Positions 38,591 to 43,620 of a stretch of 47,270 nucleotides of DNA are shown piece by piece. The DNA lies in the NCBI GenBank assembly GCA_021776435.1, contig JAJFFW010000116.1, positions 1-47,270 on the forward strand, read 5' to 3'. The first letter of the stretch is position 1. Every line of letters starts with the position of its first letter. Under the pieces are notes generated by a model. The model made no database searches. It saw nothing but the letters and a program-made list of their open reading frames with translations, and had not been told where the DNA came from. The position numbers and the translations under genes were made by a program. The DNA is from Parvularculaceae bacterium (lineage in GTDB: Bacteria; Pseudomonadota; Alphaproteobacteria; Caulobacterales; Parvularculaceae).

Positions 38591-40446
38591 GCCGCCGTTC
38601 CTATTGGCCGCCGCCGAGACGGTGGTTCCGTTTTTTCATCGAAAAGTTCTGCAAGTTTGTCGATCATGGCGCCGCCGAGTTGATCCACATCGACGATTGT
38701 CAATGCTCGACGGTAATAACGCGTTACATCGTGGCCGATTCCGATTGCGAGAAGTTCGACGGGGGAGCGGGTTTCAATCTGATGGATGACTTCACGTAAG
38801 TGGCGCTCAAGATAGGCGCCGCCATTGGTCGATGATGTTGTGTCATCGACTGGGGCGCCATCCGAGATCACCATCATAATGCGACGGGCTTCCGGTCGGC
38901 CGAGTAAGCGCTGATGGGCCCATAACAGAGCCTCGCCATCAATGTTTTCTTTCAGCAGGCCTTCTTTCATCATTAATCCGAGAGATGTGCGTACACGTCG
39001 CCATGGCGCATCTGCAGATTTATAAATGATATGACGAAGATCATTGAGCCGCCCAGGTTTGGTTAGACGCCCCTCCTCAACCCACTTTTCACGGGACTGC
39101 CCGCCTTTCCATGCGCGGGTTGTGAAGCCGAGAATTTCGACTTTGACGCCGCAGCGCTCCATGGTGCGTGCTAAAATATCGGCGCAGATAGCCGCGATGG
39201 TGATCGGTCGTCCACGCATTGAGCCAGAATTGTCGATCAAAAGTGTCACCACCGTATCGCGAAAATCCTGTTCCTTTTCCTGCTTGAAGGAAAGGGGCTG
39301 CATGGGATCGACGACCACGCGAGCCAGCCGTGCTGCATCAACAACCCCCTCATCGAGATCGAATGCCCAACTGCGGTTTTGTTGGGCCAGTAATTTTCGT
39401 TGTAGTTTGTTGGCGAGACGCGAGACAACGGCATGTAGATTTTCGAGTTGTCGGTCCAACGTTTTCCGCAGACGCTGCAATTCTTCAGAATCGCAAAGAT
39501 CAGCGGCGTTCGCTATCTCGTCGAATTCACTTGTGAAAACCGTGTATGTCTCGCCACTGTCGCCATCAAAGTGTGCGCGCAAAGACGGAATTTTAGCGTT
39601 TTCAACGGCGCCGTCCGCGTCATCGGAGGCCGCGTCCAGGTCCTCATCCGAGAGTTCAGCATCTCCGTCGGGAACATCGCCGGCTTCCGGCGGTCCGTCG
39701 TCAGGCATTTCCGACGACGCTCCGTCATCGCCGTCTTCATCTGTTGTTTTTTCCTGGTCGCTGTCTTCGTTTTTGCCTTCCGCATCATCGCTGCTGCCTT
39801 CTTCGCCGGTCTCATCATCGAGTTCGAGATCACGAATAACGGTGCGCGCAAGCTTGGCGAAGGTTGTTTGATCTGACAAATCTGCGGATGCAGCGAGTGC
39901 GTCGAGTGAAGCGCCGGCCCGTTGTTCGATGACCGGAGCCCATTTCTTGAGAATCGATTGGGCGGCTTCCGGCGCCGGTCGACCAGTCAGACGTTTTCGC
40001 AAGAGAAGGGCGGCAATATCGGCGAGGGGGGCAGCCTCATCGGTGTTTTCCTGACCATAGCCCTTATCTGCGAAGGTTTTTTCCAAAGCAGCGGCCAGAT
40101 TGTCTGCAACGCCTTTCAGGGCTTGCGCTCCTATGGCTTCGATCCGCGCGTCTTCGAGAGCGCTAAATACGGCTCCCGCATCCGCACTTTTTGGCGCCAG
40201 GCGTGAATGGGCTTCTTCGTCATGATGGGCGAGACGAAGTGCAGCAGCGTCGGCTTCTCCTCGGGCGATTGCAGCGGCTTTGGTGTCCAGAATTCTGCCA
40301 GGCAGAGGAATGCGCGCCTTTTTGCCCGTTACCTGTGCGTGATCGCCACCAAAGGCGACATCTACCTCCGGTAGGGCGGAAAGCGCACGCGTCGTGTGGA
40401 GCAACGCACGTTTGAAATTCTCACGGATCAGTTCTTTCGGGGTCAT
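38587..40446 (-). CDS. cobT: Cobaltochelatase CobT-type protein
   Basis: CobT with CobS forms the AAA+ chaperone-like partner of CobN, which inserts cobalt in aerobic B12 synthesis. The 619-residue protein has the N-terminal CobT domain (residues 1-210), and a long acidic stretch of Glu, Asp and Ser (about 215-285). A von Willebrand A domain carries the MIDAS motif DNSGSM at residues 405-410. No cobS or cobN is adjacent, and the gene is followed by a phytase-like gene instead. Function in B12 synthesis is therefore plausible but not shown by context; many alphaproteobacteria keep cobST without the full pathway nearby. Confidence 0.9.
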
Positions 40447-40548
40447 AGGTCGGCGACCATAATCCGGCCAGCCTACTTTCCCAAGTGTTGTTGGCGCCCG
40501 GGATTATAGTTTTGTGGGGCTTTTCAGATTTTGTTCCGTAGGGCAGGA

Positions 40549-42672
40549 TCAATTTCCGCGAGCCTGGTGCGTCTGCTTGATGGAATGGTGTTCGCGCCAA
40601 TAGCGCTTCCAGCTTCGCGGCCAGAAGTGGTTGGGCCATAATCTATATTTTCGCCTCAATAAATTTTTGCTCTGTTTTCTCAGGCGACGGCTGGGTTGAC
40701 CCGTAAGGGTGCGATCAACCTTAAGAAACTCTAATTCGTCGGAACCATCCGACGCAGGCGTTTCCTCAAAGATTTCCGGTTCGATAGAAAGAGAGAGTTT
40801 CGATTCTTGGACTGGCTTTACATTTGGCGTTGGCGGCGCTGGCTCTTTCGGATCGTCGTCCAAGAAAATTTCAATGATGTCATCTGCTGGGACTGGCGGT
40901 GGGGGACCAAGCCGTTGTGTATCGAGACCGCCTACGCGCATCACAGGTCGGAAATGCGCCGCCACGTGACCGATTGAAATAGAAGCGCCTTCGAATTCAC
41001 CGGCGTCCATGGGCTTCCCCGCCTGATCGGCAGTTGCTCGCACTTCTATATTTTTGGGATCAGCAACGTTTTCGTCAATGGGAGTAGAAACGATATCTTC
41101 TGAGGGAAGCGTCTGATTCTGTGTTGCAGGTTCTTCACCATCTTTCATGGCAGATTTAATCGTTATTGGATCGTCTTCCTCCCACACGATATCTTCATCA
41201 TCGGTGGACACAGCATTTGACTCCTGATCGGTTTCATCACGGATCATCCGCGTCTCGTTGGGGATGCTCTCGAAACGCGTGACTTGATTGGGGTCGTCGA
41301 GGGCGCCAGACGCTACTCTTTTGCCGGCCTTCACCTTAAGAGATCTCTCGACGTTCGGCTCAGTGGCGGCTGGCTTATTAATTTTTGGTTTTGGCGACGT
41401 AACAGCCTCCTCACTGGAGAACTCTTCCGATAGACGCTCTTGGAGTTTACGCGCGGCGTAAGCTTTTGTGTTGGTCTCTGGTGTAATATCCGTATCGCTG
41501 GCCTCAGTAAGTTCGAGCGAGCGAGCGGGCTTTTCGATATGGTCAGGCTCTTGGGGGCGCTTGGTTTTTGCGGCGGCCTTCTTTTTTGCCCGTGCAATCG
41601 CGGCTGCTTTGCGCTTTAGTTTTTCGTTGGCTTCGGGATCGAGACTCTTGGCCGTCACATCCTCTCTAGCTGTATCATTTTCTGTTCTCGCGCGCGTACT
41701 CGGCTTCGCCCTGCGTTTTCGTGTTGATTGATTGGTCTTTGCTTTTTCCGTTGCTTCTTCAGTTGCAGACGGTGCTTGCACGCTCGAGGGTCGAGCCTTT
41801 GTTTCTGTCGCAAGTTTTGGCGTCGGCGCGCTTGTGCGAAAAAGCGCAGTAAGATCATCCGTAGAAAGAGGTTCAAGCGCCAATAGTTCGCGAACTTCAT
41901 TGACGCGAGATGGTAGAAATTCTGAGAGCGCTCCGACTTTGCCGAGGTGATTGCCCTGCGCCGCAGTAAAGCCAAGCCCACGTAACGCCGCGAGTGACGC
42001 TTGATCTTCGACGCCAACGGCTGTGATCGCAGCATTCGCTTGACTGGCAATATCAAGGAGTTCGGATATCGCACTCAACCCAGGTCCCCGTACGGTGCGG
42101 GCGAACCTTAGAATTGCCGCGCCGCCGGTTTTGATCTCGTCAAAGGGAAAGGGTTCAATCGCGCGTAAAAGATCATTCGCACGTCCGCGGACCTCAATTG
42201 CCAGGCGGGCGCCTGTTGAGGCAAGTCGTTTAAAACTCTCAGCCGATTCCTCAATCGGGGTGTGGACGGGGGGCATCGGGCATTCAAGCGTGATGAGATC
42301 GGCCGGGAAATCGTGCTCACGCAGCAATACGGTCATATGTGTTAGGAAGGCTTCGTCGCTGAGATCGCTCAAGGCTAGATTGATCGATATTCCGGGAGAA
42401 TAAGGTCCGCGCCAGCTGATGTAGCGATCCAAGGCCCGGCCCAGCACATAGCGTGTCAGTTCGCTCATCCGACCCTGAGACTCAAAAAATGATATAAATG
42501 CACCGGGCGGTAACATGCCCAATGTTGAGTGGCGCCAGCGGACAAAGGCCTCCATGCGCGCAAGCGCACCATTCCCGAGGTCAAAGATCGGTTGAAAAAG
42601 AACCTCGAAGTCTTTGTTTTTTAGGGCATTATCTATGTCGACGTTTGAAAGTCGAACAGCTTGCGCGCCCAT
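40549..42672 (-). CDS. Degenerate EAL-domain protein with long charged tail
   Basis: The 707-residue protein begins with an EAL-like domain (about residues 10-250): FEVLFQPIFDLGNGALARMEAFVRW, where the EAL motif is EAF (41-43). Asn98 in INLAL, Glu130, Lys181 and Gln239 are kept, but the metal-binding LDDFG motif is AIEVRG (158-163) and AEGVE is AVGVE. It is therefore unlikely to hydrolyse c-di-GMP and may bind it or a partner. Residues about 270-690 are low-complexity, rich in Lys, Arg, Glu, Ser, Thr and Pro, hence probably disordered. The C-terminus is basic and Trp/Arg-rich. ATG 42672 is chosen for GCGGAGGG six bases before it. Confidence 0.82.
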   Translation of the reverse strand: MGAQAVRLSNVDIDNALKNKDFEVLFQPIFDLGNGALARMEAFVRWRHSTLGMLPPGAFISFFESQGRMSELTRYVLGRALDRYISWRGPYSPGISINLALSDLSDEAFLTHMTVLLREHDFPADLITLECPMPPVHTPIEESAESFKRLASTGARLAIEVRGRANDLLRAIEPFPFDEIKTGGAAILRFARTVRGPGLSAISELLDIASQANAAITAVGVEDQASLAALRGLGFTAAQGNHLGKVGALSEFLPSRVNEVRELLALEPLSTDDLTALFRTSAPTPKLATETKARPSSVQAPSATEEATEKAKTNQSTRKRRAKPSTRARTENDTAREDVTAKSLDPEANEKLKRKAAAIARAKKKAAAKTKRPQEPDHIEKPARSLELTEASDTDITPETNTKAYAARKLQERLSEEFSSEEAVTSPKPKINKPAATEPNVERSLKVKAGKRVASGALDDPNQVTRFESIPNETRMIRDETDQESNAVSTDDEDIVWEEDDPITIKSAMKDGEEPATQNQTLPSEDIVSTPIDENVADPKNIEVRATADQAGKPMDAGEFEGASISIGHVAAHFRPVMRVGGLDTQRLGPPPPVPADDIIEIFLDDDPKEPAPPTPNVKPVQESKLSLSIEPEIFEETPASDGSDELEFLKVDRTLTGQPSRRLRKQSKNLLRRKYRLWPNHFWPRSWKRYWREHHSIKQTHQARGN

Positions 42673-42852
42673 TCTTAGCCCTCCGCGGTCCAGCCGATTG
42701 ATCCACATTCTAGCGATACCCCTATTTTTCTCCCTTCGGGGTTAATTCTCACTGAACAGGAAGCGGCGCACGCTGTTTGATTCAATTGGTCTCAGAATGG
42801 TGCGATTCATGGCTTCGCGCAAACCGTCTCACTACATGTCGGGTGAGGATGT

Positions 42853-43620
42853 CTAGAAGTCGAACTGTTCGCGCAAAGTTCGCTCTTCTAACGAGTGGCC
42901 ACGATCGAAAAGGAGAGTCATTGAAATTGACCGGTCTTCGGCTGCATCAACTGCGATGACGTTTCGAACTTCCTGGTTATCCGCAACTGCAGAAACAGAT
43001 CGCCTCTCGGGATCGATCGCTTCGAATCGGACTTGGGCGCTGAGCGGAAGAAGTGCGCCACGCCACCGTCTCGGGCGAAAAGCGCTAATCGGCGTCAGCG
43101 CCAGGAGCTGAGCGTCAATTAGTAAGATGGGCCCATGAGCGGAGAGATTGTACGCTGTTGAGCCCGCGGGCGTTGATAACAATACCCCGTCACAAGCGAG
43201 CGAGGCCATTCGTACTTTACCGTTTACGATGATTCTGACGTGAGCACTCTGCCGAGTTTGGCGGAAGAGGGAAATCTCGTTAATCGCCATAGCGGAGTGC
43301 CGTTCTCCATCTACAGTTTCCGCCATCATGGCGAGCGGATGGATGATCGCGGGTTCCGCTTCCGCGATCCGATCGGGTAACCCATCGAGATCGTAAGTAT
43401 TCATTAAAAATCCAACTGCGCCGAAGTTGACCCCGTAGATGGGTTTCCCTTCGGTCATGTGTTTATGCAGGGTTTCGAGCATCAACCCATCGCCGCCCAC
43501 CGGAACGATAATGTCCGCGTCCTCCGCGCTGACGTGACCGTAGCGCGCCCGTAATAATTGACACGCATCAGCGGCTTCAGGTTTGGGGCTCGCCAGAAAT
43601 GAGAGCTTTTGCCGAGTCAT
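42853..43620 (-). CDS. nadK: NAD kinase NadK
   Basis: NadK phosphorylates NAD+ to NADP+. The 255-residue protein has the GGDG motif (residues 42-45), GVNFGAVGFLMN, an AINEISLFR segment (the NE/S motif) and LLSTPAGSTAYNLSAHGPIL. Length is normal for an alphaproteobacterial NadK. It is divergent from the class II aldolase gene across a 217-base gap. Confidence 0.92.
   Translation of the reverse strand: MTRQKLSFLASPKPEAADACQLLRARYGHVSAEDADIIVPVGGDGLMLETLHKHMTEGKPIYGVNFGAVGFLMNTYDLDGLPDRIAEAEPAIIHPLAMMAETVDGERHSAMAINEISLFRQTRQSAHVRIIVNGKVRMASLACDGVLLSTPAGSTAYNLSAHGPILLIDAQLLALTPISAFRPRRWRGALLPLSAQVRFEAIDPERRSVSAVADNQEVRNVIAVDAAEDRSISMTLLFDRGHSLEERTLREQFDF

Follow-up and report, generated by a model that had tools for sequence, protein, structure and literature searches.

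A gene on the minus strand of the window (the whole 47,270-nucleotide stretch of Parvularculaceae DNA analysed here, contig JAJFFW010000116.1) encodes a bacterial protein resembling a degenerate c-di-GMP-cleaving enzyme in which the likely signal-binding pocket has been kept. On balance, we favour the idea that it is a catalytically dead EAL-fold receptor or scaffold, which would bind c-di-GMP or a similar ligand and use a tether and a short motif for docking on a conserved partner. The EAL head would hold c-di-GMP, or the similar ligand, in its retained pocket, a disordered tether, variable in both length and sequence, would join the head to the short motif, and this motif, KNFLxRKYxxxPTHFWPKSWKR, would dock onto the partner; for the protein as a whole we infer ligand binding, docking to a protein partner and a signal-dependent output.

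The open reading frame spans 42708..40549 of the minus strand, and the ATG at 42672 is the most likely start because homologues begin MGAQAVRLS or nearly so; the coordinates, strand and start (40549-42672) that had been proposed from the letters of the DNA without database searches (referred to below as the sequence-only reading) were borne out, the start by this conservation. In the 707-residue product an EAL domain (residues 12-245) is followed by a tail of about 422 residues. PF00563 (EAL) was the sole Pfam match of the protein (E-value 1.3e-40; 139.7 bits against a cut-off of 31.3; profile positions 3-235 of 236), and no Pfam family other than EAL was found at E 0.01 in any of 35 members, the window protein included. 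Identity as TipF, LapD or CsrD was rejected, as the scores obtained with the NCBIfam equivalogs were far under the respective cut-offs (19 bits against 600, 30.7 against 1020 and 28.6 against 663); no FimX model was among those listed. The gene and the features of its head are as follows.

40549..42672 (stop codon included), minus strand: gene of an EAL pseudoenzyme with a tail predicted to be disordered, 707 amino acids; the start MGAQAVRLS is kept in homologues.
41938..42639, minus strand: EAL domain (residues 12-245; PF00563); AlphaFold pLDDT mostly above 90, best PDB match MorA 4rnh.
42544..42552, minus strand: E-A-F (residues 41-43) replacing E-A-L; E41 invariant (40/40), third position F in 36, L in 3 and Y in 1.
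42184..42195, minus strand: E160-V161-R-G replacing the metal-binding D-D-F-G; E160 in 40/40, position 161 V in 36, M in 3 and L in 1.
42013..42021, minus strand: A-V-G (residues 218-220) replacing the catalytic A-E-G; position 219 V in 37 and I in 3 (n=40).

Residues were read in 40 different members out of the 58 found in the family (43 aligned rows minus three cut copies of others). The change of E-A-L to E-A-F at residues 41-43, on which the sequence-only reading had remarked, was confirmed and matters little, given that E41 is retained throughout and the third position varies. The loss of D-D-F-G was equally clear: the site reads IEVRG (residues 159-163) in the window protein, and its second Asp is V, M or L in 40/40 members. 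A further catalytic loss, missing from that reading, concerns the Glu of A-E-G, which is V219 in the window protein and V or I in 40/40 members; Glu was also never found at position 133 in the 40 members. Ordinary EAL proteins of the order and class, collected as two sets, kept DD[FY]G, the A-E Glu and Glu133 in 16/16 and again in 16/16 cases. Neither the D-D-[FY]-G nor the A-E-G of an active EAL phosphodiesterase is therefore present, and since none of the 40 members retains the second Asp of DDFG or the Glu of A-E-G, the enzyme is, judged from these residues, very probably dead. The retention of E41, N98, E130 and K181 could be taken to mean that the protein works as a phosphodiesterase despite the changes, but every member read lacks both the metal-binding second Asp and the Glu of A-E-G, and we regard this as very unlikely.

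Seven pocket residues (Q27, E41, R45, N98, E130, K181 and Q239) are invariant in 40/40 members; four of these, Asn98, Glu130, Lys181 and Gln239, had already been picked out as retained in the window protein. E160, T182-G183-G184 and E222 are likewise invariant (40/40), and all seven pocket residues are invariant in 10/10 rows of an alignment with far relatives at 25-32% identity to the first row. Kept pocket residues together with lost catalytic ones are what characterises the degenerate EAL c-di-GMP receptors, and this is the pattern a receptor would show, such that c-di-GMP binding appears likely. A different explanation is a ligand-independent scaffold, in which the EAL fold would now serve protein interaction alone and c-di-GMP binding would be gone. 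The pocket does appear to be remodelled rather than merely broken, because the catalytic positions have been replaced family-wide, E160 is a fixed Glu and the three residues after K181 are always T-G-G, against mostly x-D-x in ordinary EALs. As points against the receptor reading, the kept pocket residues could serve folding, and some relatives have lost pocket residues (K181 and Q239 in L181 and L183; R45, N98 and others in L138). However, a mere scaffold would have no obvious need for the seven residues that are invariant both in the family (40/40) and across the far relatives (10/10), and we consider this explanation possible but rather improbable. The proposal of the sequence-only reading, a receptor or scaffold rather than an enzyme, is well supported at the sequence level by the lost catalysis and the pocket kept in 40/40 members, together with the confidently predicted EAL fold, but it overlooked the conserved motif in the tail and the NAD-kinase-linked clade described below.

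An AlphaFold model built with 35 family sequences predicted a confident EAL barrel at residues 11-280 (pLDDT mostly above 90). Its best PDB match with VIA-align was MorA (4rnh; Z 27.2, rmsd 2.4, 249 residues aligned), with FimX (4foj; Z 24.9, rmsd 3.1, 246 aligned) and LapD (3pju; Z 23.8, rmsd 3.0, 243 aligned) further down; the VIA-align and Foldseek matches were EAL structures, all to the head. At the sequence level the family profile matched FimX weakly (34.8 bits), a protein that is not known to have such a long tail. In TipF of Caulobacter the EAL domain is degenerate. The FimX EAL domain of Pseudomonas and Xanthomonas resembles that of the window protein in being degenerate with the motif Glu, the following Arg and the Lys kept; FimX is described as keeping only 4 of 10 catalytic residues and yet binding c-di-GMP at ~120 nM, although, unlike the window protein, it is multidomain and carries a GGDEF domain (PMC3527489). 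LapD, like the window protein, has a catalytically dead EAL domain and is a c-di-GMP receptor; it differs in being a membrane receptor with HAMP and GGDEF domains and in having K-V-L in place of E-A-L (PMC3032553). Dead EAL receptors are thus a known kind. TipF is described as a c-di-GMP adaptor in flagellum formation (PMC10212136); it differs from the window protein, whose own genome encodes the TipF-like L013 as a distinct protein (233.7 bits, which is also under the TipF cut-off).

The remainder of the protein is made up of the following features.

40693..41817, minus strand: acidic, variable, probably disordered linker (residues 286-660), with 73 D+E against 55 K+R and low pLDDT in both models.
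41563..41637, minus strand: basic Ala/Lys-rich helix in the linker (residues 346-370), predicted in both models; R[KR].AAI.R.K in 19/36 complete members.
41416..41469, minus strand: short helix at an L-Q-E-R-L motif (residues 402-419), predicted in both models.
40603..40668, minus strand: conserved C-terminal motif KNLLRRKYRLWPNHFWPRSWKR (residues 669-690) with an invariant FWP (36/36 complete members); predicted helices at 671-675 and 686-706.

The tail had been described as long, charge-rich and of low complexity. Its length (422 residues, counted from residue 286) and charge (34% charged residues in both 286-660 and 661-707) support this, but the low complexity was overstated: the mean 30-mer entropy was 3.41 bits in the tail against 3.54 in the EAL part, and no repeat array was found by Tandem Repeats Finder. 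In the full AlphaFold model the pLDDT of the tail was mostly below 50, and when the tail was folded alone the mean pLDDT was 54.2 and the pTM 0.23, with the same helical patches (346-370, 402-419, 671-675 and 686-706) in both models. Low pLDDT points to disorder only indirectly, and on this basis the tail is probably disordered apart from the short helices. The tail was not recognisable as a folded domain, in that EAL was the sole Pfam family in the 35 members and both tail models were of low confidence. Between members the linker has diverged almost completely (31% identity over 80 random pairs against 27% with one side shuffled), and the length of the tether ranges from 160 to 505 residues. 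Q411 is invariant across 35 aligned rows, and the strict LQE.[LI] pattern occurs in 12/36 complete members.

At the end of the tail, the basic Trp/Arg end picked out by the sequence-only reading proved to be a strongly conserved motif, which goes beyond what that reading had claimed. It was found in frame in 6/9 public loci by tblastn, with FWP present in 36/36 complete members and the later W in 32/36. The consensus across members is KNFLTRKYxxxPTHFWPKSWKR. Complete members make up 36 of the 43 rows: L030, L037, L038, L040 and L042 are cut by the locus end, L006 runs off its contig, and in L005 an in-frame stop precedes the motif. In this last case (L005:4545-6400) the stop splits the homologue and the FWP tail goes on in the same frame, which is the mark of either a sequencing error or a recent break.

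Across the deepest split of the family (L061-L063 against the other 33; 99 pairs), the 10-mer around FWP was 72% identical and the EAL domain 35%, with 62% for the KNFLxRKY part where a regular expression recognised it (31/36 members); over all pairs the contrast was small (63% for the EAL domain against 70% for the FWP 10-mer). At the DNA level the pattern H-F-W-P-[KRHQNS]-x-W was present in 32/41 Parvularculaceae genomes, of which 31 have it at this locus, and in 9/159 other genomes of the order, which is chance level because the reversed control pattern matched 23/159 of these genomes. A motif profile run over 385 sampled genomes of the class scored 56.1 bits at this locus and at most 22.3 elsewhere. 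In the genus g3 loci (L059-L063) the motif lies 63-90 residues before the protein end and is therefore not bound to the very C-terminus. A search of PDB sequences with a 32-residue motif query gave best E-values of 0.27 and 0.7, which were taken as chance. SSB and FtsZ also combine a globular head, a variable disordered linker and a short conserved C-terminal docking tip; the window protein resembles them in architecture only and no homology is claimed.

The basic tail could also have arisen as an artefact of a frameshift near the gene end, with a second small gene after it, since a plausible ORF in another frame (MAQPLLAAKLEALL...) overlaps the end of the gene. By tblastn, however, the Trp/Arg tail was in frame at 6/9 public homologous loci and the other ORF at 0/9, and FWP is present in 36/36 complete members. 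The Trp/Arg end is thus neither chance nor a frameshift product, because it is conserved in frame in relatives, and the frameshift reading, to which we give practically no credence, was rejected. As a separate observation, a second-frame open stretch on the minus strand (window 40430-40640; MAQPLLAAKLEALLARTPFHQ...) overlaps the EAL gene at its end and cobT at its start, and was found at none of the nine public homologous loci (tblastn).

Alternatively, the motif might act not as a docking peptide but as an amphipathic basic/aromatic helix that anchors the protein on the inner membrane. It is basic, rich in Trp and Phe and has predicted helices, the window's own sequence has a raised hydrophobic moment (z 2.1), and some class-level relatives have basic-hydrophobic ends; for three of these, L172, L173 and L175, shuffles seldom reached the hydrophobic moment (11, 14 and 9 of 500). 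Across the family, however, the moment after FWP was no higher than in shuffles (mean z 0.16; n 37, including an off-register FWP of the cut-off L037), and in L170 and L174 it was not raised. Membrane anchors usually do not need exact fixed residues, whereas here F-W-P and then W (32/36) are fixed. We therefore judge an anchor to be unlikely, if still worth keeping in mind, and keep to docking on a conserved partner as the preferred role of the motif.

A member was found in 58/62 genomes of Parvularculaceae, one in each, and the scores of the family matches fell into two groups, at 159 bits or more and at 88.5 bits or less. The four genomes in which no member was found (G590, G595, G599 and G600) are all drafts of 84-94% completeness; G599 was counted here because its sole match was an ordinary EAL protein at 60 bits. 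In a sample of 200 genomes of the order searched at E 1e-50, 41/41 Parvularculaceae genomes had a member and 0/159 of those from other families did, and in a class-wide search at the same threshold the window's own genome was the sole match. This genome has five GGDEF matches and four EAL proteins, two of them canonical-looking and one TipF-like; because of these GGDEF matches and the other EAL proteins, c-di-GMP is probably made and present in this organism.

On the sequence evidence, the window protein belongs to a broader clade of EAL pseudoenzymes, of which it forms the Parvularculaceae branch; members of this clade are encoded mostly near an NAD kinase gene and often near an Hpt-like protein. 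In a tree, 27 pseudoenzyme rows separated from 30 ordinary EALs at 100/100, TipF, FimX and LapD not being included; both trees that were built gave long-branch warnings and no order inside the pseudoenzyme clade is claimed. The first tree was made without the repeated family loci L139, L143, L145, L146, L155, L157 and L158, and the second additionally without L148, L152, six of the eight f4 rows (L138 among them) and nine family rows; the TipF-like L013 fell below the E 1e-5 threshold and is in neither the residue table nor a tree. EAL proteins of about 320 amino acids were found in eight genomes of genus g10 (family f4) and in G133 (family f5), with the A-V-G change in 7/8 of the f4 proteins and in that of G133. 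Six of the eight f4 loci and that of G133 were examined in longer stretches, and in these the gene lies downstream of NAD kinase and the Hpt-like gene. The remaining f4 protein, L138 (G018), has A-T-G and has lost R45, N98 and other pocket residues, and may be decaying.

A profile that included far relatives added at least 13 further members, from families f8, f14, f120, f125 and f127 of the class, taken from 30 loci that the profile search returned; this number is a lower bound because the profile loses its power to tell clade members from ordinary EALs below about 175 bits (L181 scored 174, L183 171 and the best ordinary EAL 167). In all 13 the second Asp and the Glu of A-E-G are gone and E41, R45 and N98 remain, while K181 and Q239 are kept in 11/13 (both lost in L181 and L183) and position 130 is Glu in six and Asp in seven. 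Their open frames are of 287-421 amino acids without the long tail, and no match to the FWP motif was found for them in the class genomes. Some of these short relatives (L170, L172-L175) end in a basic-hydrophobic stretch, for example GFLKGLMRRK or FFTRLQTRFSRTF. The short pseudoenzymes of the other alphaproteobacterial families thus share with the window protein the clade, the catalytic losses and mostly the gene neighbourhood; they differ in often having an Hpt-like gene near, which Parvularculaceae mostly lack.

The conserved context of the gene is its upstream neighbour.

42853..43620, minus strand: NAD kinase (NCBIfam PRK04761; 372 bits, cut-off 211), which belongs to the conserved surroundings of the gene and not to the protein itself.

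In the window, NAD kinase thus lies upstream on the same strand, as in the clade generally, and it was the sole conserved neighbour found for the family gene. It is next upstream, on the same strand and less than 600 bases away, in 15/20 fetched family regions; in one more it is 1.8 kb away, in one the contig is too short, and in three (genus g6) it was not found within 6 kb. Among the class-level regions, as far as these were fetched, it is upstream on the same strand in 11/13, counting L211 in which only an end fragment is present (E 0.001); in L199 it is lacking and in L210 the contig ends. This association might indicate that the protein regulates NAD kinase, coupling NADP supply to c-di-GMP. 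Against this, NAD kinase is missing or distant in four of the family regions, an EAL gene lies within 1.5 kb of NAD kinase in only 3 of 24 loci from other families of the order (L100-L123), and adjacency may simply be inherited gene order; such a regulatory role seems quite unlikely to us. A functional link with the downstream CobT and phytase-like genes was also rejected, as tblastn found neither in 29 relative regions.

The Hpt-like gene was present in 8/13 class-level regions. Among the 24 NAD kinase loci taken from other families of the order, 21 have it nearby and 14 have a DUF2336 gene. Judged by Pfam, the Hpt label is a weak one (15.1 bits, cut-off 24.6). In Parvularculaceae there were four weak matches in 62 genomes, and the gene is mostly gone or unrecognisable. 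Tail growth and Hpt-like loss coincide in this family, and a connection between them may be supposed. We put forward, as a tentative idea only, that the proteins form an undescribed, probably ancient, NAD-kinase-linked class of alphaproteobacterial c-di-GMP receptors, found elsewhere often beside an Hpt-like phosphotransfer protein, and that Parvularculaceae lost this partner and gained the tether with FWP docking on a new, family-wide target. No description of the subfamily of the window protein was found in the open-licence literature, which is weak evidence of novelty, and the main text of a c-di-GMP gene survey of five alphaproteobacterial orders does not contain 'NAD kinase', 'Parvularcul' or 'degenerate' (PMC9756655).

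If the tentative idea of an ancient receptor class is true, the receptor would be a core c-di-GMP readout of Parvularculaceae. A dead EAL protein kept in single copy by a whole bacterial family, with a nearly fixed putative docking motif on a probably disordered tether, would be unusual; the fixed FWP motif offers a direct handle for finding the partner. The wider clade, with NAD kinase and the Hpt-like protein as neighbours, could open a new route into c-di-GMP signalling among Alphaproteobacteria that are not model organisms. A connection between HmrX of Caulobacter (CC_1220), as that protein is presented in PMC11481889, and the Hpt-like neighbour was considered, and the possibility that FssA or FssB are DUF2336 or Hpt proteins was not borne out by the account in PMC7885107. 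The DUF2336 - NAD kinase - Hpt-like neighbourhood recurs in the order (L100-L123 and L161-L164), and in L201 (3697-5479) an AbrB-type protein (PF05145) and a receiver-domain protein (PF00072) are encoded between NAD kinase and the Hpt-like gene.
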